Both the position numbers and the translations under genes were made by a program. From Phycisphaerae bacterium (GTDB taxonomy: Bacteria; Planctomycetota; Phycisphaerae; UBA1845), in contig JABWBH010000035.1 of assembly GCA_013360585.1 (NCBI GenBank), positions 1 through 46,763 of the forward strand: a stretch of 46,763 nucleotides of DNA, given 5' to 3'. Under the pieces are notes generated by a model that worked only from the letters and a program-made list of their open reading frames with translations, was not told the DNA's origin and made no database searches. Of this stretch, positions 16,209 through 25,119 are shown piece by piece. The first letter of the stretch is position 1, and each line of letters starts with the position of its first letter.

Positions 16209-17993
16209 ATGCGGAAACATGCGTGGGTAGCGCTGGCGCTTTGCGCGCTGGCGGGTCAGGCGTCGGGGCAGGGGTTCCTGAGCGAGTTGCTCCTGGATCC
16301 GCCGTCAACCGACAACGGACAGGAGTTTGTCGAGATTCAGGCGGCGCCGAACTTCAGCTTCAGCGGCTGGTGGTTCCTGGTCATTGAAGGTGACGGAACC
16401 GGCGGCGGCGTCATCGACGTCGCGCTCAACCTCAGTTCGTATTCGACGGGCGCCAACGGCCTCCTGCTCATCCGCGACTCGGGCACAGTGCTCCAGCCGC
16501 CGCCGGACGGGAACACGAATGTCGTCATTTTCGACTTCAACCCCGACATCGAAAACGGCACGAACACCTACGTCCTGGGTTTCGGTGGTACGTTCACCGT
16601 CGGACAGGATCTCGACGCGGGAAACGACGGCACGCTGGACGCACCACTGCCCGGGTTCACCACGGTGGACGCCGTCAGCTACAAGGAGTTCGACGGGACG
16701 CCGGACGACGAGCATGAGTACGCCGACGATCTCGGCGGCACGGCGCTGGGGCGCTTCGAGTCGTACACGCCGGACGCCTTGCACCGCATCCGATGCGGAT
16801 CCAACGCCCTGCTCTGGGCCGGAGGCGTCGTTACGGGCACGTCGCCCGGTCCGTACAACTGGGACACGCTCCAGATGTTCGGGTGGCAGACGATCGGCGT
16901 GACTTCGCCGCCGACGCTGAACCCCGGCAACCTCAATTATTCGATCGTGGACTGCGACGGCGACTGCGTTTCGGATTTCGTCGAAGGCGACCGCGATGAC
17001 GACGGGATCATCGATGACTGCGACGCCTGCCCCGACGATCCGGATAACGATGCGGACGGCGACGGCGCCTGCGGAAACGTCGATAATTGCCCGGACGTGA
17101 GCAATAAGGATCAGTCGGATCGGGACGGCGATGGCGCGGGCGACGCCTGCGACGGCTGCCCGGACGATCCGAACAAGACCGAGGAGGGCGCGTGCGGCTG
17201 CGGCGTCAGCGACGACGACGCGGACGGCGACGGCACGCCGGACTGCCACGACGGCTGCCCGGACGATCCGAACAAGACCGAGGAAGGCGCGTGCGGCTGC
17301 GGCGTCAGCGACGACGACGCGGACGGCGACGGCACGCCGGACTGCCACGACGGCTGCCCGGATGATCCGAACAAGACCGAGGAAGGCGCGTGCGGCTGCG
17401 GCGTCAGCGATGACGACGCGGACGGCGACGGCACGCCGGACTGCAACGACGGCTGCCCGGATGATCCGAACAAGACCGAGGAAGGCGCGTGCGGCTGCGG
17501 CGTCAGCGACGACGACGCGGACGGCGACGGCACGCCGGACTGCAACGACGGCTGCCCGGATGATCCGAACAAGACCGAGGAAGGCGCATGCGGCTGTGGC
17601 GTCAGCGACGACGACACGGACGGCGACGGCGTCGCGGATTGCGTGGACAATTGTCCGGACGTTCCGAACCCCGGCCAGGAGGACTCAGACGAGAACGGCG
17701 TGGGCGATGCGTGCGAAAGCGGCGGCGACTGCACCGGTTTGGAGTTCCTCCAGATGGGCTGCAAGCTGCACCTGGACAACACGATTACCGTGGTGTCGAA
17801 GCTGTTCAACGGGCGTCCGGGGACGACGGTCACGTTCCGTCTCGACGACAACCCGATGACCGACTTCCCGCGCGTGGTGAAGGACAACGGCCGGGCCAAG
17901 GTGAAGTTCTTCCGCATTCCGAACGGACGACACTTCGTCGATCTCGTCGAGTGCGGCGTGGAAGCGAGCATCACCTGCGGTCCGCAACCGTGA
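16209..17993 (+). CDS. Secreted lamin-tail/thrombospondin type-3 repeat protein with C-terminal Cys domain
   Basis: The 594-residue product has a signal peptide (cleavage likely after QASG or ASGQ). An N-terminal beta domain follows that resembles lamin-tail domains (FLSELLLDPPSTDNGQEFVE, FLVIEGDG, GLLLIRDSG). From about residue 250 to 500 there is a long series of Asp-rich, calcium-binding thrombospondin type-3 repeats (DGDGTPDC, NCPDVSN, NCPDVPNP), five of which are nearly identical 33-residue copies. Residues 508-594 form a Cys-containing domain that also ends two other proteins of this island (21524-22651 and 22715-24856). The protein is probably a calcium-stiffened surface stalk with a C-terminal anchoring domain. 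ATG 16209 has a good GAGGGGG site. A perfect hairpin follows the gene. Confidence 0.88.
   Translation: MRKHAWVALALCALAGQASGQGFLSELLLDPPSTDNGQEFVEIQAAPNFSFSGWWFLVIEGDGTGGGVIDVALNLSSYSTGANGLLLIRDSGTVLQPPPDGNTNVVIFDFNPDIENGTNTYVLGFGGTFTVGQDLDAGNDGTLDAPLPGFTTVDAVSYKEFDGTPDDEHEYADDLGGTALGRFESYTPDALHRIRCGSNALLWAGGVVTGTSPGPYNWDTLQMFGWQTIGVTSPPTLNPGNLNYSIVDCDGDCVSDFVEGDRDDDGIIDDCDACPDDPDNDADGDGACGNVDNCPDVSNKDQSDRDGDGAGDACDGCPDDPNKTEEGACGCGVSDDDADGDGTPDCHDGCPDDPNKTEEGACGCGVSDDDADGDGTPDCHDGCPDDPNKTEEGACGCGVSDDDADGDGTPDCNDGCPDDPNKTEEGACGCGVSDDDADGDGTPDCNDGCPDDPNKTEEGACGCGVSDDDTDGDGVADCVDNCPDVPNPGQEDSDENGVGDACESGGDCTGLEFLQMGCKLHLDNTITVVSKLFNGRPGTTVTFRLDDNPMTDFPRVVKDNGRAKVKFFRIPNGRHFVDLVECGVEASITCGPQP
17154..17648 (+). 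repeat. Five 99-bp tandem repeats within the TSP3 gene
   Basis: Five units of 99 bp begin at 17154, 17253, 17352, 17451 and 17550. Each encodes 33 residues running GCPDDPNKTEEGACGCG, then VSDDDADGDGTPDC. Copies 1 and 2 end in CHD, copies 3 and 4 in CND, and copy 5 diverges near its end (DTDGDGVADCVD). The near identity at DNA level indicates recent duplication or homogenisation by recombination. Confidence 0.95.
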
Positions 17994-18053
17994 CGCGGTA
18001 AGAACGCAAACCCGGCAGGTTCGCGGCCGGGGATCAGCCAAGGGTCAAAAGGC

Positions 18054-18087
18054 GCGGGCCTGCGATCAAAACGGATCGCAGGCCCGC
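18054..18087. terminator. Perfect 14-bp hairpin between converging genes
   Basis: GCGGGCCTGCGATC (18054-18067) and GATCGCAGGCCCGC (18074-18087) are perfectly complementary around the loop AAAACG. The structure lies midway between the ends of two converging genes (17993 and 18138). No T-run follows on either strand, so it is either a bidirectional terminator without a U-tract or a protective 3' stem-loop. Confidence 0.7.
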
Positions 18088-18137
18088 ACTGTCATGGATG
18101 ATGCGTTTTCCAGGGCGTCCCCGCCGGGCGGACGGGG

Positions 18138-19337
18138 CTACGGCTTGGAGAAGGTGTTCTGGAATCCGCTGAAGTCCTTCAGGTCCACGTCGTTGTCGTG
18201 ATCGAGGTCGAGGAAGCGGCAGTCGCACAGCGTATCCGTCGGGTCAACGCGATGTCGCGCCAGGAAGTCCGGTCCGTCGAGGCACGCGGTCCATTCGCGG
18301 TGGTCAACGAGATCGAAGTCGCCGTCGAAGTCGAACTCCCCGGTGCGGATGCGGCGCATGAACAGAATGTCCGTGCTCTGCGCCGTGTAGTCCATGCGTA
18401 GGACGATCTCGCCGTGGTCGTTGATGTCGGGAACCCAGTGTTTGTTGGGACCGTCCGTAATCTGAAGAAACTCTCCATCGCGGTACAGCCAGACGTGCGG
18501 GCCGCGGAGGCCTTCATAGGATCGACGCATAACGATGTCGCCGCGGTTGTTGATACGCGGGTTCGATCCCCAGTCGGTCAACCGCTCGGTCACGCCGTCT
18601 CGCCAGATCCATAGCTCGCCCTCCGAAATGTCTGTAGCCATCCACACAATCGTTCCGGAGTCATTGATGGTTGGAACTTGCGGTTGGTGCATCCAATCCT
18701 GACTGATGACTCGGGCGACCCCATTGTCGTAATACCATACACGAGACTCCCAGGGTTCAGGACAGAAATCATAGTCCGTCCACGTACACATGCCGACATT
18801 GTTCAGCGCCGCCGCCTGATTGGTGTTCGTCCCGTCTGATACCATGCGAACGCGATGATTGCGTCGAAGGGCAATGTCAGCATCGGAATCCTCGCAGCCT
18901 GTTCCCCACCATTCAGTCCAGCCGAGGTGTTCCTGGTTGTTGATGGTCGGACCCGTCGCGGCAACGGGATTCTCGGCGACGAGAGTTTCCACCCCATCCT
19001 CGTAAACGATGATCTGAGTCGCGCCGGCGCCCTCTATACCCCTGCACCAAGTCATGACCCCGTTATTGTTAATGTCGGGCAGGACGTCACGGTCATCATT
19101 TACGGTGATGCGACTGAGAACACCGTTGTCGTACAGGATCACCTCCGTATCCGCCCAGCTATGGCCTATGCGCTTGGCAAATACGAGCTGTCCACATTCG
19201 TTGAGCCGCGCGGTGCTGTCATAGTGGGCGTCGGAAGTAATCTGGAGCAATTCGAAACCGTCGGGCACCTGGGCCAAGGCCGCCGGCACCGTGAATAAGA
19301 TAATGAGGTATCGAAGGCACCCCAAGTTTGAACGCAT
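18138..19337 (-). CDS. Secreted beta-propeller protein with dockerin-like C-terminus
   Basis: The 399-residue product has a signal peptide (LIILFTVPAALA, then Q). The body consists of repeated blades of the type EVILYDNGVLSRIT, DINNNGVMTW, HVWLYRDGEFLQIT and DINDHGEIVL, alternating a short description strand with a DIN/TIN turn, and looks like a six- or seven-bladed propeller. The C-terminus has two Asp-rich calcium-type loops, DFDGDFDLVDHREW and LDLDHDNDVDLKDFSGFQ, separated by about 30 residues that include a pair of cysteines. This is the dockerin-like tail common on exported planctomycete proteins. It may serve in surface sorting or calcium-dependent attachment. ATG 19337 has a GAGGGGAAG site upstream; the frame extends to 19376 without recognisable sequence. 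It is the last of three leftward genes. Confidence 0.82.
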   Translation of the reverse strand: MRSNLGCLRYLIILFTVPAALAQVPDGFELLQITSDAHYDSTARLNECGQLVFAKRIGHSWADTEVILYDNGVLSRITVNDDRDVLPDINNNGVMTWCRGIEGAGATQIIVYEDGVETLVAENPVAATGPTINNQEHLGWTEWWGTGCEDSDADIALRRNHRVRMVSDGTNTNQAAALNNVGMCTWTDYDFCPEPWESRVWYYDNGVARVISQDWMHQPQVPTINDSGTIVWMATDISEGELWIWRDGVTERLTDWGSNPRINNRGDIVMRRSYEGLRGPHVWLYRDGEFLQITDGPNKHWVPDINDHGEIVLRMDYTAQSTDILFMRRIRTGEFDFDGDFDLVDHREWTACLDGPDFLARHRVDPTDTLCDCRFLDLDHDNDVDLKDFSGFQNTFSKP

Positions 19338-19448
19338 GAGTCTTCCCCTCTCAAGGCGCAAACAGAAAACCCTCAAAAGTCGAGGCGGGAGGGCGGCGAC
19401 GGGTCCGACCGCCCCCCGCCTTCCGTTCCTTGACGCACAGACGAACCT

Positions 19449-20321
19449 CTACGGACAGGTTCCGGAGAAGATGGCCGTCGCTCCGTCCGCCACGCAGATG
19501 GACCCGCCGCGGTAGCAGATGTTTCCGGTCGTACACAGGGATTCATTGACGTTCAGCGTGCCCCCGGAAACGCAGATGAGCCCGGACAGCGCCGTACATT
19601 CTGCATCCAGGTTGGCGGTCCCGGACGTGATTTTCAGGCTTAAATCGCCGCTGATCTCCTCGTCGACCTCAAGAGTCCCTCCCGCCACGACGATCTGCCC
19701 GCCTCCCGACTTCCCATAGGTGTTGAGCGTGACCGTTTTGCCGCTCTCAACCAGGAGGGTGGCGTAAAGACTCAACTCGGTCTGAACCTCCAGGTGGCCG
19801 GACAGGAGAAAGCTCAGTGCGACTCCGTGTGCGATGGTGAGCACATCGCCCGAACCCCCTTTGATAAGCCCCTTGACTTCACCGACGATCCCGTCTCCGA
19901 CGCCGGGCGTCGCCGTGTTGATGATCCAATGATCTTGCACGATCACCAGCTCCGGGTCGTCGCCGGTTCCGGTCACGAAGCGCAGCTTCCCGTTGATGAC
20001 GCTGCTGTCCTCCTGGTCCGATCCGGTCCCGTGCAGCGTCAGCGTGCTGCCCTTGGGGATGTCGAGTCTCCCGCCGGTCTCGATGATGATCTGCAAGGCG
20101 TCGCCGTCCGCCCCGTTGAGCGTGCAGGTCTTCCCGTTGGGAATGACCGCGATATCGGACGAAGTGGGCGCATTGCCGCAATCCCAGTTGCCGTTCTCGC
20201 TCCAGTTGTTGTTTACCAGTCCCGTAAACTCACACGTTTCAGCCGTCGTCTGCGTGGTGAACAGACCGCAGCATGCCGACGCGAGAATTGCGGCGGCCTT
20301 CGTTTGAATCGTTCTTTTCAT
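19449..20321 (-). CDS. Secreted beta-helix-like protein
   Basis: The 290-residue product has a signal peptide ending near TAE. A WSENGNWDCGNAPTSSD motif follows, then many short strand-turn repeats (IIIETGGRLDIPKGSTLTLHG, LVIVQDHWII and so on), with the spacing of a right-handed parallel beta-helix. A late Cys-rich part includes CTALSGLICVSGG, CTTGNICYRGGSICV and a final SGTCP. No catalytic residues are obvious and it is probably a structural surface protein. ATG 20321 is preferred because an AAGGAG site lies just upstream and the signal peptide begins there. The next gene on the same strand (20441-20839) starts with a related motif and lies 119 bases upstream, so the two are likely paralogues. 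It does not carry the C-terminal Cys domain of its neighbours. Confidence 0.75.
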   Translation of the reverse strand: MKRTIQTKAAAILASACCGLFTTQTTAETCEFTGLVNNNWSENGNWDCGNAPTSSDIAVIPNGKTCTLNGADGDALQIIIETGGRLDIPKGSTLTLHGTGSDQEDSSVINGKLRFVTGTGDDPELVIVQDHWIINTATPGVGDGIVGEVKGLIKGGSGDVLTIAHGVALSFLLSGHLEVQTELSLYATLLVESGKTVTLNTYGKSGGGQIVVAGGTLEVDEEISGDLSLKITSGTANLDAECTALSGLICVSGGTLNVNESLCTTGNICYRGGSICVADGATAIFSGTCP

Positions 20322-20440
20322 CGTACGCTCCTTGTGTATGACCCATCGCGTCCGGAAGGGACGCGGGCATGAAGAAATCCGTTCCGCGGCGCTTGGCGCG
20401 AAGCGCTGCGCCGCACGCTCATACCTGGCGCACCCTTCGC

Positions 20441-20839
20441 TCACTCGTCACAGGACAGCAGCGTACTCGACACGATCGCCCCGCCGCCCATCGCAACCTC
20501 GACCGGCCCGACGATCGTCAACGAATCGACCTTCAGCGTCGGCGATCCGCTCACCACGCCGAAATCCACATCGCCTTCGATCGTCAGGTCGTCGATCTCC
20601 TCGTCCGGGTCGCCGGCCCCGTCCACGAGATCCACCGTCCAGCTTCCGCTCGGAATGAGCGCGTCATCGCCGGTGTCATCCGGAAAGCAGAACGCACATC
20701 CTGCCGAGAACCAGTTGGCCGTCGTACTCCAGGCGTCGTCGCCGCCGTTGCCCGTCCAGGTGAACGACGCACCCAACAGCGCCCCGCTCAGCAACACAAA
20801 CCCTAAGCCCGGCAGAACCCACTTCCTTCTGGAAATCAT
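20441..20839 (-). CDS. Short secreted beta-helix-like paralogue
   Basis: The 132-residue product begins with a signal peptide (MISRRKWVLPGLGFVLLSG). The motif FTWTGNGGDDAWSTTANW follows, then DDALIPSGSWTVDL and LTIEGDVDF...LKVDSLTIVG. The order W-x-x-x-NW, a D-x-A-x-IP-x-G turn and then short beta repeats is the same as in the neighbouring 290-residue gene, but only about half as long, ending in SCDE. It may be a shortened paralogue or a free-standing domain. A GGGAG site lies ahead of ATG 20839. It is probably the first gene of the leftward group of three. Confidence 0.65.
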   Translation of the reverse strand: MISRRKWVLPGLGFVLLSGALLGASFTWTGNGGDDAWSTTANWFSAGCAFCFPDDTGDDALIPSGSWTVDLVDGAGDPDEEIDDLTIEGDVDFGVVSGSPTLKVDSLTIVGPVEVAMGGGAIVSSTLLSCDE

Positions 20840-21008
20840 ACCGACTCCCTTCCTGGTCCTAAAGGAAAATCCCGCGCCGGCCTCGCCGGCTCCCCAGCCG
20901 GCGCGCGCGGAGGAAACACGCTTGAAGTACTGGGTGAACGTGCGACGATCGGTGGAGTAAACGAGGCGGGGAAACCGGTCGGGACTCCAACCGTTCGCAC
21001 AAGGCGAA

Positions 21009-21137
21009 TTAGAACGATGCGCTATTCTTGCGGGGGGGGGGCATCACAGGAACACGCCCGGACCCACAGAACGGGCAGGAATCCGGCGTCATGCGACGCA
21101 GAGTGCTGATCCACTGATGGATGTCCGAGCGACTCAT
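21009..21137 (-). CDS. Possible small CxxC protein (uncertain)
   Basis: A 42-residue ORF starting MSRSDIHQWIS contains DSCPFCGSGRVPV, a CxxC knuckle like half a zinc ribbon. It ends in PPPRKNSASF, where the prolines come from a tract of 10 C on its strand. A longer start exists at 21200. There is no clear ribosome-binding site. The ORF could be a gene remnant or chance. If real, its homopolymer tract could slip and change the C-terminus. Confidence 0.2.
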   Translation of the reverse strand: MSRSDIHQWISTLRRMTPDSCPFCGSGRVPVMPPPRKNSASF

Positions 21138-21456
21138 CCGGCTAAATCCAAAGCGAAGAACACCGCTCAGTTCGTAGGTTGAAGAATGATAACCGCCCAC
21201 GCATTGAAATACAAGGATAATTCATAACCCCTTTGCGGAATGTCGGTTATCACGCGACGGCGATATCGAACCAGGTCCGCTCCTGGGGTTGCGCTGCCGC
21301 GCCAGGGGGAAAAGAAGCGAGTTCTTCGGGGTACTCCCGGGGGACTTGAAGCGGCGTGCCGTAACGTTGGGCATCGCACGGGAGCGGCTCGCCAAGCCGT
21401 CCGCCGATGATGTGTTCACTCCAACAATTTGACGGTGTCGCCGGCGTGGAATGGGT

Positions 21457-21462
21457 TATACT
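21457..21462 (+). promoter_or_regulatory. Candidate -10 box TATACT
   Basis: TATACT lies 61 bases before ATG 21524 in an AT-rich patch. The nearest TTGACG (21429-21434) is 22 bases away, too far for a standard spacer, so only the -10 element is credible. Confidence 0.3.
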
Positions 21463-21523
21463 AGGCCACATGGGACATCGCCCCCGGAATGCGAAGATAC
21501 GGACTGCGGTCCAGGAGGTTCTC

Positions 21524-22651
21524 ATGGCTTCGAGGCATTTGATCCCTGCTCTGCTCTGCGTGCCACTCAATATCGCGTCGGCCCAGGAGGCGCTGCGCGC
21601 GCTGCTGCCGCCCGGCGCGACGCCGCCTGCGCCCCTCGCCGCGGAAGTGACGGCGCCGCCGGAATCCCCGGCCGGAGAGGACGTGATCTATGACAGTCTG
21701 TGCATAACAAACGAACAGCGCTATGACAACGGGTTTGGATCGTGGTGCGGCGGCGGCGATGTGTTTGGCGGGCGATTCAATTATGAAACGGCCGATGATT
21801 TCGTGCTCCGCGGCGACTGCACCGTCACGTCCATGACCGCGGATTTCGTCAGCTTCCTCGCCGACCCGACGTCGTCCGCATGCGTGAGCTTCTATCGGCT
21901 GACGGGCGACGGCCCGCCTGATGACGAAGCCGCGTGCCAGACGGTCTCGAGGGATCTGGTGGTGACGCCCTTCTCGGACACGGTCTTCGGGTTGCAAGGT
22001 CATCGCGTTCGCGCGCAGATTTCCTGTGCGCTACCGCCTGGTCGTTGGGCGGCGGTCATGCAGCCGATATCCGGCGACTGGGGTTACGTCCTCGGATCGA
22101 CATCGCCGAATCCGTGCGGCGGAGATGCGTCAATCAGCACGTGGAATCGGCTTGGACGCGGCGGTCTCCACGATTGCTGCCAGATTGCCTGCACGAGGGA
22201 TTGCGACTTTACGTGGTACAACCTCGGGGAGAGTCACGGCGACGCCACGCTGTCCATGCGCATTACAACGGAACCGTGTGAGCCGCGTCTTGGCGCCTGT
22301 TGCTTCGACGACGGAACCTGCCGCGAGATGGGAGATGCCGAGTGTTCTTCGGAAGGAGGGGCGTTTCAGGGCGAGGGGGTTGAGTGCGGACGACAGTGTC
22401 TGTGCCCGCTCGTGAAGGAATTCACGGCCCAATGCCGCAGGGACGGCGGGCGGATCCGCGCCGTGGTCCGCTTCACCGGACCGCACGCCGACGGGCAATC
22501 CGTGACGATCCGCATTGACGAGCAGGAAACGAGCGTCCCGGTGATCGGCCGCCGCGCCCGACTGCGCTCGGGGCCCTTCTCGGGCGAGCATGTCGTCGCG
22601 ATGACCGACCCGGATTGCGGAAACCGCGTTGTCGTGAACTGCGGCGGGTGA
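21524..22651 (+). CDS. Secreted ADDF-type beta-sandwich protein with C-terminal Cys domain
   Basis: The 375-residue product has a signal peptide (LLCVPLNIASA, then Q). The body contains an ETADDFVLRGDCTVTSM segment and aromatic-rich strands (FTWYNLGES, DATLSMRI) of a type I recall from planctomycete secreted proteins. After it comes the Cys module ACCFDDGTCREMGDAECS with EGGAFQGEGVEC, also familiar from planctomycete exported proteins. Residues 294-375 form the C-terminal domain, CPLVKEFTAQC, a VTIRID strand, GRRARLRS, GEHVV and two further cysteines. It aligns with the ends of the 16209-17993 and 22715-24856 products. ATG 21524 has a strong AGGAGG site. A GC-rich hairpin overlaps the stop region. 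It converges with the Kelch gene. Confidence 0.8.
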   Translation: MASRHLIPALLCVPLNIASAQEALRALLPPGATPPAPLAAEVTAPPESPAGEDVIYDSLCITNEQRYDNGFGSWCGGGDVFGGRFNYETADDFVLRGDCTVTSMTADFVSFLADPTSSACVSFYRLTGDGPPDDEAACQTVSRDLVVTPFSDTVFGLQGHRVRAQISCALPPGRWAAVMQPISGDWGYVLGSTSPNPCGGDASISTWNRLGRGGLHDCCQIACTRDCDFTWYNLGESHGDATLSMRITTEPCEPRLGACCFDDGTCREMGDAECSSEGGAFQGEGVECGRQCLCPLVKEFTAQCRRDGGRIRAVVRFTGPHADGQSVTIRIDEQETSVPVIGRRARLRSGPFSGEHVVAMTDPDCGNRVVVNCGG

Positions 22652-22674
22652 GGCCGTTGGCGGTCGCCGCGGCC
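22652..22674. other. GC-rich hairpin between converging genes
   Basis: GGCCG (22652-22656) pairs with CGGCC (22670-22674), and GGCG (22659-22662) with CGCC (22665-22668), giving an interrupted stem right after the stop codon at 22651. No T-run follows on either strand. It may limit read-through between the two converging genes. Confidence 0.4.
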
Positions 22675-22714
22675 GACAGAAGCAACCGACATCCCCTGAT
22701 CGGATCCGGTCGCC

Positions 22715-24856
22715 TCACTCGCAATCCGTCGCCGAGCAGCGCCGCAAGCTGCGGCATTGAAGGATGCAGACGTCATGCGGACCCGCGTCCACGTTGCGCC
22801 ACTTCGCGCGCAGACGCCGACCGGGCGCCTCCACCAGGATCATCCGCAGGTCGTCGTCGTCCAGCGCGAAGGTGACGGGCGTTCCCGCGGGCTGGTGGAC
22901 CACGGCTGACGCCTTGATCACGCCGCGGCCGCGCCCGTTCCGACAAGTCGTGCGCACCTCGCCGATCCCCTCACACGGATCGTCGCCGTCGACGTACCCA
23001 TCGCAATCGGTGTCCACCCGGCGCTCCCACCATGGGAGTCGATCGGTGTCGAAATGGTACCCTTCTCCGCCAAAATACTGAAGCGCGTCGCGGGCTTCGT
23101 CATACGCCATCGCGTGATGGTAAGCGGGGACGGGCGCGCGCCCGAGAGCCTTCCACGTTTCCCCGTCCCACGCCCACAGATCATCCATATCCCGGCTGCT
23201 GCCGGTTCCGCCGTAGACGAGGGTGACGCCGCGCTTGCTGTCGTACGCCATCGCATGCCAGTACCGCGGCGGCGGGCCGGTTGTCGCGCGGAGCGTCCAG
23301 ACTTCGCCATCCCATTCCCAGGTGTCGCCGAGCGGGCCGTTCTCGTTCCCCCCAAACATCACCATGACGCCGCGGCGGGAGTCGAACGCCATTTCCGGCG
23401 CTCGGCGGCCAACCAGCGCCTCACCCACCACCTGTCGCCACGAGGAGCCGTCATAAAGCCACGTTTCGTCAATATGCGCCGTCGGTCCGAACCCCGACGG
23501 ACTTCCGAAGAGCACGATCTCCTCGCGCCACGAGTCGTAGGCCATCGCCGGGTTATTCCTGGGTCCCGGGTCTTGGGGCAGGTCTTCGACCCGAGTCCAG
23601 ACTCGGCCGTCCCACTCCCAGGTGCCGACATAGTTGTTGACGAGCGAACCGCTCCCGCCGTAAAGCACCGTCACGCCGCGACGACGATCAAACGCCATCG
23701 CATGATCCCGCAGCGCAGGCGGATCGGAATGCTCAGGGACCAGCCACCCGGCGCCCGCCCACTCCCACGTCGCCTGGCTGGCGATGAACCGGTTCTGACC
23801 GACGACGACCGTCCGCCCGCGAACCGAATCATACGCCATCGCGTGTTCAGTCATGACCGCCGGCCGCCCGTTAATCATGCTCCGCCATTGCTCCCCGTCC
23901 CAAAGCCAGGGGCGCTCCTCCCATGCCTCGCGCACATTTCCGCCAAAGAGCATGCAGACGCCGTGCGCCGCGTCGTAAACCATCGCCGTGTACTGCCGGC
24001 CGGGAGGCGACTCTTCCACGTTGCGCAAGGCCCACTCTTCGCCCTTCCATTCCCAGGTCTCGACGGCTCCCTGATTCGACGGAGATCCGACATTGACAAG
24101 CACGCGCCGCCGCTCGTCATACGCCAGCCCCGGGTTATTGCCGGTGTTCGGTCCGTCCGCCGCAAGCTGCACCCAGGAGTCGCCCTGCCATTCCCAAAGC
24201 CCGGAACGGAAGGCGTAAAACAGGATCGATTTCCGCACGCCCGATGGGGTCAGCGAAAACCCGCCCCACCGAGGCGGTCCGACCTCCGTCACCGGTTGCC
24301 AAGATTCACCGTCCCACGACCAGGTCACCCAGTTCGTCCTGTTGTCCTGCGATTGTCCCACAAGCAGCAGGCGCCTTGCGACCGCGTCGTAGGCAAGCTC
24401 GTAGGGCGGACGCATGTGCGGCGCTTCGACGTCCCGCTGCGTCCACGTGCGGCCGTCCCACTCCCACGTGTCGGCATGCTCCTGCCGTTCCGTCGTACCG
24501 CCAAACAACACCGTCTTTCGCCTCCCTGCATCGTAGGCCATCGCGGCTCCCTGCCGCGTGCTCGGCGACGGACCGCTGTACGCCACGGGTTGCCAGACCA
24601 CGCCGTTGGATTCCCACGTGTCGTTCAACCTGGCTCCGGGGTTGAAGTACCCGCCGAACAGCACGGTCACGCCGCGCGCCGAGTCGTACGCCATCGCGTG
24701 GTCCTCCCGCGTGAACACCGCTCGCGCCGACCACACCAGGCATTCGTCATTGGCGCGGACGACGGTCCCGAGCGCGGCGAAGGTCAGGACGGCGAGCACC
24801 GGCATCCGCCCTCTGCGATCCCGATCCGGCAAGTGAACTTGGTACGGTGCTTTCAT
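22715..24856 (-). CDS. Secreted double Kelch beta-propeller with C-terminal Cys domain
   Basis: The 713-residue product has a charged N-terminal region and a signal sequence (MPVLAVLTFAALGTVVRA, then N). About twelve Kelch-like repeats of the form HAMAYDSARGVTVLFGG, then DTWEWDG-x-x-W follow, enough for two six-bladed propellers. The last repeat runs into a calcium-type DTDCDGYVDGDDPC turn. Residues 628-713 form a domain with CEGIGEVRTTC, VTFALDDDD, GRRLRAKW, GPHDV and terminal cysteines. It aligns with the ends of the TSP3 protein and of the ADDF-type protein. It is probably a cell-surface binding or scaffold protein. ATG 24856 is preferred because an AGGAGG site lies 9 bases upstream; the frame extends to 25024. 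It is transcribed away from serS. Confidence 0.88.
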   Translation of the reverse strand: MKAPYQVHLPDRDRRGRMPVLAVLTFAALGTVVRANDECLVWSARAVFTREDHAMAYDSARGVTVLFGGYFNPGARLNDTWESNGVVWQPVAYSGPSPSTRQGAAMAYDAGRRKTVLFGGTTERQEHADTWEWDGRTWTQRDVEAPHMRPPYELAYDAVARRLLLVGQSQDNRTNWVTWSWDGESWQPVTEVGPPRWGGFSLTPSGVRKSILFYAFRSGLWEWQGDSWVQLAADGPNTGNNPGLAYDERRRVLVNVGSPSNQGAVETWEWKGEEWALRNVEESPPGRQYTAMVYDAAHGVCMLFGGNVREAWEERPWLWDGEQWRSMINGRPAVMTEHAMAYDSVRGRTVVVGQNRFIASQATWEWAGAGWLVPEHSDPPALRDHAMAFDRRRGVTVLYGGSGSLVNNYVGTWEWDGRVWTRVEDLPQDPGPRNNPAMAYDSWREEIVLFGSPSGFGPTAHIDETWLYDGSSWRQVVGEALVGRRAPEMAFDSRRGVMVMFGGNENGPLGDTWEWDGEVWTLRATTGPPPRYWHAMAYDSKRGVTLVYGGTGSSRDMDDLWAWDGETWKALGRAPVPAYHHAMAYDEARDALQYFGGEGYHFDTDRLPWWERRVDTDCDGYVDGDDPCEGIGEVRTTCRNGRGRGVIKASAVVHQPAGTPVTFALDDDDLRMILVEAPGRRLRAKWRNVDAGPHDVCILQCRSLRRCSATDCE

Positions 24857-25119
24857 CGTTCGTGGCCTCCTGGCGGTGACGCCGTTTTCCGGTCGGTCGT
24901 CCGTTCGACTCCGGAAACCGGCGGCCTCGATATCCCTACGCTCGGCAGGGGTGCAGGGTTCGCGCCGCCTATGATAACGCGCCGCTCGTGGCGATCGTAC
25001 CCGGAACCACCGGTTTTTATTCAAGGCGTATGCGGCGGGGATGCCCGTTACGGCTCCGCAGGCGGCGGAAACCGTCCCGTTTGCGTCGATCCGGGTGATC
25101 CGGTAATCCCTTCAGGGCT

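Follow-up and report, generated by a model that had tools for sequence, protein, structure and literature searches.

The window, that is the whole stretch of DNA analysed here, is 46,763 nucleotides long and belongs to a Phycisphaerae genome (G000) of 4.24 Mb in 84 contigs, 97% complete. Three of its proteins, called 'carriers' below, end in copies of one cysteine-bearing domain. The features concerned are the following, with strand in brackets:

16209..17993 (+): carrier 1, a 594-aa secreted protein with TSP3 repeats ahead of the domain (Pfam TSP_3, 1.2e-10; signal-peptide-like N-terminus)
17730..17990 (+): domain copy 1, 87 aa, ending ...CGPQP (leave-out profile E 4.6e-19; AlphaFold2 model)
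21524..22651 (+): carrier 2, 375 aa from an internal ATG (listed open reading frame start 21407)
22292..22402 (+): small GACC..DGTC..C..C module immediately upstream of copy 2 (position by script)
22403..22648 (+): domain copy 2, 82 aa, ending ...CGG (leave-out profile E 4.1e-14; AlphaFold2 model)
22715..24856 (-): carrier 3, a 713-aa secreted Kelch beta-propeller (listed open reading frame start 25024; Pfam Kelch, 3.1e-31; signal-peptide-like N-terminus)
22718..22975 (-): domain copy 3, 86 aa, ending ...CE (leave-out profile E 2.1e-15)

The three open reading frames (ORFs) and three domain spans claimed by an earlier note on this DNA proved exact, and the frame that it had described, C-x9-C-x19-G-x2-VT[FI]-x-[LI]-D, is present in each protein (residues 508, 294 and 628). 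Its x19 spacing is identical in the three window copies, but it is not a rule of the family, as it varies in an alignment of 29 members. Among the N-terminal parts named in that note, TSP3 and Kelch were recovered by Pfam, whereas 'lamin tail' and 'ADDF-sandwich' had no Pfam match. Carrier 2 gave no Pfam match; its N-terminus, MASRHLIPALLCVPLNIASAQ, looks signal-peptide-like by eye and scored 1.6, a fail, in a crude signal-peptide script. One of the 87 carriers of the genome (see below) is listed by NCBIfam as similar to the MYXO-CTERM cohesion protein MtsC, which has TSP3 repeats, and we infer that this entry corresponds to carrier 1. In the same gene, at window positions 17157-17615 (+), five identical CPDDPNKTEEGACGCGVSDDD units follow one another at a spacing of 99 bases; they are a likely site of repeat-number change.

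Two neighbouring genes were also noted. At 18138-19376 (-) lies a secreted-looking protein with an Asp-rich, dockerin-like tail, recognised by eye (no Pfam match), so that a dockerin-like tag and the Cys domain seem to occur only a few kb apart. A protein with a weak match to the G8 domain (Pfam, 8.5e-6), at 19449-20444 (-), adjoins the carriers.

A family of C-terminal domains

The claim that the three ends form one family was borne out: a profile of 83 other copies, themselves recruited via a 29-row profile (A1) in which all three window copies are represented, matched them at E values of 4.6e-19, 2.1e-15 and 4.1e-14. Used in a six-frame search of the window, the 83-copy profile retrieved the three ends at 1e-16, 4.8e-13 and 1.1e-11, and nothing else in the six frames at E up to 1. 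A single-sequence search from copy 1, on the other hand, found copy 3 at E 0.13 only, with copy 2 unlisted; the coherence of the family rests on intermediate members.

In the own genome, single-sequence searching yielded 36 matches at E up to 10. Profile A1, built from window copy 2 and 28 of these matches, gave 99 at E up to 1; a wider profile, A5 (86 sequences), gave 102 at E up to 1e-5. Six of the 99 were set aside (five weak, one with an internal stop), and 91 of the 93 that were followed could be read as ORFs. Subtracting three fragments and one internal copy leaves 87 carriers, and these, minus ORF L109, provide the 86 domains used for counts of cysteines and end residues. Since 53 of the 84 contigs hold at least one of the 99 matches, the 'small accessory island' suggested by the earlier note had to be abandoned; the window itself also contains SerRS and GH77 genes.

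The two outcomes that had been named as fatal to the proposal, ends failing to unite or matching an already named domain, were both absent, as one profile unites the ends and no named match was found in Pfam or NCBIfam. None of the 29 members attained a Pfam cut-off, and the best NCBIfam E value was 0.0048, in line with the remark that no named family was recognised. A literature search of titles and abstract openings, with most subscription papers beyond its scope, found no account of this domain. Most likely, it is a family new to Pfam and NCBIfam, within a known kind, the C-terminal surface-sorting modules.

The position of the domain at the chain end is strict. Matches end at most 12 residues from the stop in 89 of the 91 ORFs, and, counted without alignment, the chain stops 0 to 2 residues past the last cysteine in 84 of 86 domains, Cys-Pro being the chain end in 47 of these 84. 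The same 0 to 2 residues were found in 20 of 20 copies from each of two other genomes, G229 and G200, these being the 20 strongest-scoring domains of each rather than a random sample. One copy of the own genome is clearly internal, 365 residues before the end (L029, contig C3:1-3000); its flanking stretches look FG-GAP-like by eye, and the ORF is possibly a fusion of two genes. In L109, 67 aa follow the match, and they seem to contain a second, degenerate copy. Two proteins of a further genome, G202, each bear one internal and one terminal copy (loci L161, L166, L168 and L169), separated by GACC..DGTC..C modules of the kind that precedes window copy 2.

There are also proteins that are little more than a signal peptide and the domain, at L004:3983-4279 (99 aa) and L008:3070-3426 (119 aa). 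Short open frames bearing the domain occur elsewhere, with 105 aa in G199 and G201 and 120 aa in G200. Together, the stand-alone proteins and the matching short frames suggest a function of the domain in its own right.

The carriers belong to many unrelated, mostly secreted families. A signal-peptide-like N-terminus was detected by the crude script in 79 of 87 carriers, compared to 5 of 50 internal control stretches, and two of the eight failures start at the edge of the available sequence. Lipoprotein anchoring was considered and discarded, a lipobox-like motif being present in only 3 of the 79. In NCBIfam naming, 'choice-of-anchor' denotes an N-terminal domain found with varied anchors; among the first 25 of 65 NCBIfam families, the 87 carriers include at least three choice-of-anchor B proteins, at least three Q, at least three J and at least one V. 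Other families, among those listed (first 25 of 48 for Pfam, 25 of 65 for NCBIfam), are subtilases, M14, M12 and M23 peptidases, Kelch, BNR, Sortilin-Vps10, LVIVD, CHRD, PHB depolymerase and peptidyl-arginine deiminase.

Predicted fold, cysteines and charge

AlphaFold2 was run on copies 1 and 2, which are divergent. Both models have seven strands, with pLDDT values of 95.4 and 95.5, and the domain is thus predicted to be a seven-strand Ig-like sandwich. Fold neighbours in the PDB are generic Ig and FN3 domains (best Z 9.1 and 9.7), and Foldseek returned no neighbour at E up to 0.001. Structures from type IX secretion (T9SS) are absent among the best 50 fold neighbours listed, which says nothing either way. 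Three solved relatives by sequence, 8prj (5.2e-9), 8prs (2.2e-4) and 8pra (0.0059), matched profile positions 29-58 only; they were set aside because no single stretch passes alone, and were read as summed weak matches to repetitive chains.

Most copies have four to seven cysteines, and the number is even in 69 of 86 domains. Alignment columns 0, 11, 99 and 111 hold a cysteine in 76, 73, 82 and 86 of the 86 rows, respectively. Cysteines co-occur in the column pairs 0-99 (p 1e-4), 91-106 (5e-13), 22-53 (1.7e-10) and 18-75 (3e-9), p values that ignore kinship among the copies. This co-variation points to disulfides within the domain, with columns 11 and 111 as the probable remaining pair. On window copy 1, the disulfides expected are Cys 1-75 and Cys 11-83. 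A free terminal thiol was considered, since the last cysteine is kept in 86 of 86 domains and that of column 11 is lost in 13. Where the latter is lost, a cysteine upstream of the domain is present in 10 of 13 cases, against 20 of 73 otherwise (Fisher p 0.001). The free-thiol idea is weakened by the GCGC-like subgroup, as 8 of its 8 members have a cysteine just upstream of the domain.

Domain and carrier body differ in charge. Lysine makes up 7.8% of the domain and 1.1% of the rest of the carrier, and, over the 79 carriers (of 87) in which 60 or more residues precede the domain, the net charge per 100 aa is +3.9 for the domain compared to -6.8 for the body (Wilcoxon p 1.2e-14). In these pairs, 70 domains and a single carrier body are net positive. 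Among the strongest-scoring samples defined above, 20/20 domains of G229 and 16/20 of G200 are net positive. Basicity is no defining trait of the family, however, because the copies from genomes with few of them are not basic as a set (three of six net positive).

The columns that are at least half Lys/Arg are 5, 7, 12, 25, 27, 66, 68, 71 and 73. They correspond on copy 1 to residues 6, 8 and 12 in strand A, 22 and 24 in strand B, 53 and 55 in the loop before E, and 57 and 59 in strand E. The basic residues alternate within the strands, and, going by Ig topology rather than coordinates, A, B and E would share a sheet, so that these side chains may form one outer face.

Distribution across genomes and exchange of tails

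In a phylum-wide sample of 199 genomes, searched with A1 at E up to 1e-5 and with at most 28 candidates scored per genome, the own genome was the sole match. Within the family, searched with A5, 11 of 51 genomes matched: five are rich, six have one to three copies, and 40 are without. The rich genomes are G000 (102 copies), G199 (80), G200, G201 and G229 (at least 109 each), and they represent four species of one genus (G000, G199, G200 and G201) and one sister genus (G229). Across the order, 12 of 114 genomes matched at 1e-6, of which two lie outside the family with one copy each; G250 and G299, with a single copy each in this search, are known as matches only. Short matches in G251 and G252, of the same order, were unconvincing as members. 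The copies that were read in the sparse genomes of the family are C-terminal, save for the two G202 proteins described above.

A single copy is present in three genomes of other genera, G214, G233 and G223 (loci L038, L158 and L159), always on one common carrier whose bodies are 49 to 52% identical; L158 had no Pfam match. This carrier may be ancestral, or the gene may have been transferred. Separate expansions in the two rich genera were also envisaged: a tree of 125 domains needed 15 label changes, compared to a mean of 18.9 and a minimum of 15 in shuffles, which indicates that subtypes interleave between the two genera, on short domains that resolve poorly.

Were the domain an anchor, its carrier families should bear different anchors in genomes that lack it. 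Tails were therefore compared for two carrier families, with labels assigned by a home-made dockerin profile and, for the IPTL type, by pattern. For choice_anch_B (32 genomes matched, 30 loci, one per genome), there were five Cys domains, 13 dockerin-like tails and five IPTL-type tails; in the remaining loci, four tails were of other kinds, two lay off the stretch and one met a stop. The five Cys domains are those of G000, G199, G200 and G201, plus G220 from outside the genus, and in G000 the domain is borne by 3/3 choice-of-anchor B proteins, judged by coordinates. For the M14 peptidases (32 genomes matched, 30 loci), the counts were four Cys domains (G000, G199, G200 and G201), 14 dockerin-like and three IPTL-type tails, and nine off the stretch. 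G229 does not contribute to either comparison, having no choice_anch_B match and lying outside the M14 set. When Pfam was run on five tails of each label, two of the dockerin-like ones passed the cut-off, one fell below it and two had no match; among the IPTL-type ones, one passed as IPTL-CTERM, two fell just below the cut-off and two had no match.

Other tags are fewer in the rich genomes. PEP-CTERM proteins number 6, 5, 8, 7 and 10 in the five rich genomes, compared to a median of 15 (3-57) in 31 further genomes of the family (p 0.007), and dockerins number 8, 6, 18 and 21 in four of them (G229 being outside the sample), compared to a median of 44.5 (16-130) in 18 others (p 0.0025); the ranges overlap, and four of the five rich genomes being of one genus, kinship weakens both p values. 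A low number of other tags need not imply the domain, as G234, G241 and G245, of the same order, have no PEP-CTERM and no domain.

Surface retention and its rivals

Gram-negative envelopes can use C-terminal tags to choose the exported proteins that are kept at the surface, and to our knowledge few such tag families have been described. Three known systems come close to the domain. PEP-CTERM combines a short motif with a transmembrane helix and a basic tail, and 87% of the proteins have fewer than 10 residues past the model; the pattern by which it was recognised is much the same as here, with many copies at the very end of unrelated secreted proteins in a patchy set of lineages (PMC1569441). 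Like the present domain, PEP-CTERM and IPTL-CTERM with exosortase (PF07589, PF18203) are lineage-patchy C-terminal tags with many copies per genome, and IPTL-type tails occupy the same carrier families in other genera. The difference is that here we find a folded domain with no transmembrane helix, two models showing no hydrophobic helix; none of the 29 members had a Pfam match to either tag. Dockerin type I (PF00404) is likewise a C-terminal module, and in other genera it occurs on these same carrier families. A dockerin consists of two Asp-rich calcium loops, which are visible in the dockerin-like tails, whereas the domain is a mostly basic beta sandwich, and Dockerin_1 is absent from the 15 Pfam families listed for the 29 members. 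MYXO-CTERM, which goes with myxosortase, also places an invariant cysteine near the C-terminus of surface proteins, dozens per genome (PMC11980579), but the present domain has no transmembrane helix or Arg-rich tail past its last cysteine, only the 0 to 2 residues reported above.

That the shared end is, as such, a surface sorting or anchoring module appears probable from the sequence comparisons. With more reserve, we favour the fuller reading of a genus-wide C-terminal domain that sorts or anchors proteins at the surface, in the place taken by dockerin-like and IPTL/PEP-CTERM tails in relatives. Carriers would exit the cytoplasm by Sec, judging from their putative signal peptides, and the last 80 or so residues are predicted to fold into the Ig-like sandwich. 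Disulfides suggested by cysteine co-variation would tie the region of the first strand to the last strand, the chain stopping at this clamp. The outer face of the A-B-E sheet, rich in Lys/Arg, may then dock on a surface partner, perhaps together with the fixed C-terminus; the basic face suggests an anionic polymer, most likely of the envelope or matrix, and the acidic carrier would be retained there. That the basic face docks non-covalently is a tentative proposal for the working mode, somewhat short of an even bet, and surface retention of the carriers is the putative outcome.

A different account is a type IX-like export signal, in which a dedicated outer-membrane machine reads the domain, delivers its carrier to the cell surface and may also cut the tag away. 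The corresponding tail models (Por_Secre_tail, which we take to be TIGR04183 / PF18962) do not appear among the 15 Pfam and 8 NCBIfam families that make up the full lists for the 29 members at E up to 0.1. A search for SprA, the T9SS translocon, found no match in the genome, and none in control genomes either, and was therefore uninformative. The T9SS signal is also C-terminal, of similar size and a seven-strand Ig-like sandwich (predicted in our case), with the signal in its last 22 residues (PMC4804311), and many unrelated secreted carriers per genome, the fixed chain end in 84 of 86 domains and the presence of about 100 copies would fit such a signal. Here, however, most copies have four to seven cysteines with pairwise co-variation, a Cys-clamped end and a Lys-rich face, and they come from planctomycetes, not Bacteroidota. 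Stand-alone copies, together with internal and paired ones, are easier to reconcile with a binding module than with a signal that is cleaved and discarded; we consider type IX-like export rather unlikely.

The domain may alternatively have no part in anchoring and be just an Ig-like end-cap or a module that binds a ligand, multiplied by chance in one lineage. Generic Ig/FN3 neighbours would agree with this, as would a likeness to the Ig-like Big_3_5 (PF16640), matched weakly by 11 of 29 members (best E 2.7e-5); but the best score of the 29 members taken singly, 25.1 bits, is below the cut-off of 35.5, and the Cys clamp sets the domain apart. The strict end position, the exchange with known tags within individual carrier families and the fewer other tags make this reading improbable. 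Equally, Lys and Cys side chains could join carriers and stand-alone proteins into an extracellular sheet, the domain being a matrix-building or cross-linking unit. The lysine excess and the stand-alone proteins, with matching short frames in three other species, are in keeping with such a unit, but an even number of cysteines in 69 of 86 domains, with pairwise co-variation inside the domain, leaves few for links, and we hold cross-linking to be quite improbable.

Returning to surface sorting or anchoring, the two-genus Phycisphaerae lineage could have replaced much of its dockerin- and exosortase-type sorting with a new Ig-like tag, served by its own machinery or surface receptor, and moved many choice-of-anchor proteins onto it. 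Such a separate sorting system is possible rather than probable. With about 100 carriers per genome, a confidently predicted fold, a patchy distribution suited to partner profiling and exchanges with two known tag types, surface-protein sorting in these planctomycetes becomes directly testable. The domain accounts for the ends of about 100 proteins per genome in uncultured bacteria, including the metagenome-assembled genome (MAG) BroJett003. This record, presumably from an anammox reactor, was retrieved in a pattern search for one subtype together with Bin_14R, SJ659 and SURF_32, all of them Planctomycetota or Phycisphaerae/Phycisphaerales MAGs.

The 'mobile anchoring, sorting or binding module' of the earlier note agrees with the C-terminal place, the secreted carriers, the roughly 100 matches, the unrelated N-termini and the exchange with dockerin-like and IPTL-type tails. 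At one locus of the own genome (L098, contig C80:64500-73600), five carriers with a single domain subtype form a tandem array. Detectable likeness between their bodies is limited to one pair (26% identity over 277 aa), which gives the impression of a domain handed on from one gene to its neighbour.
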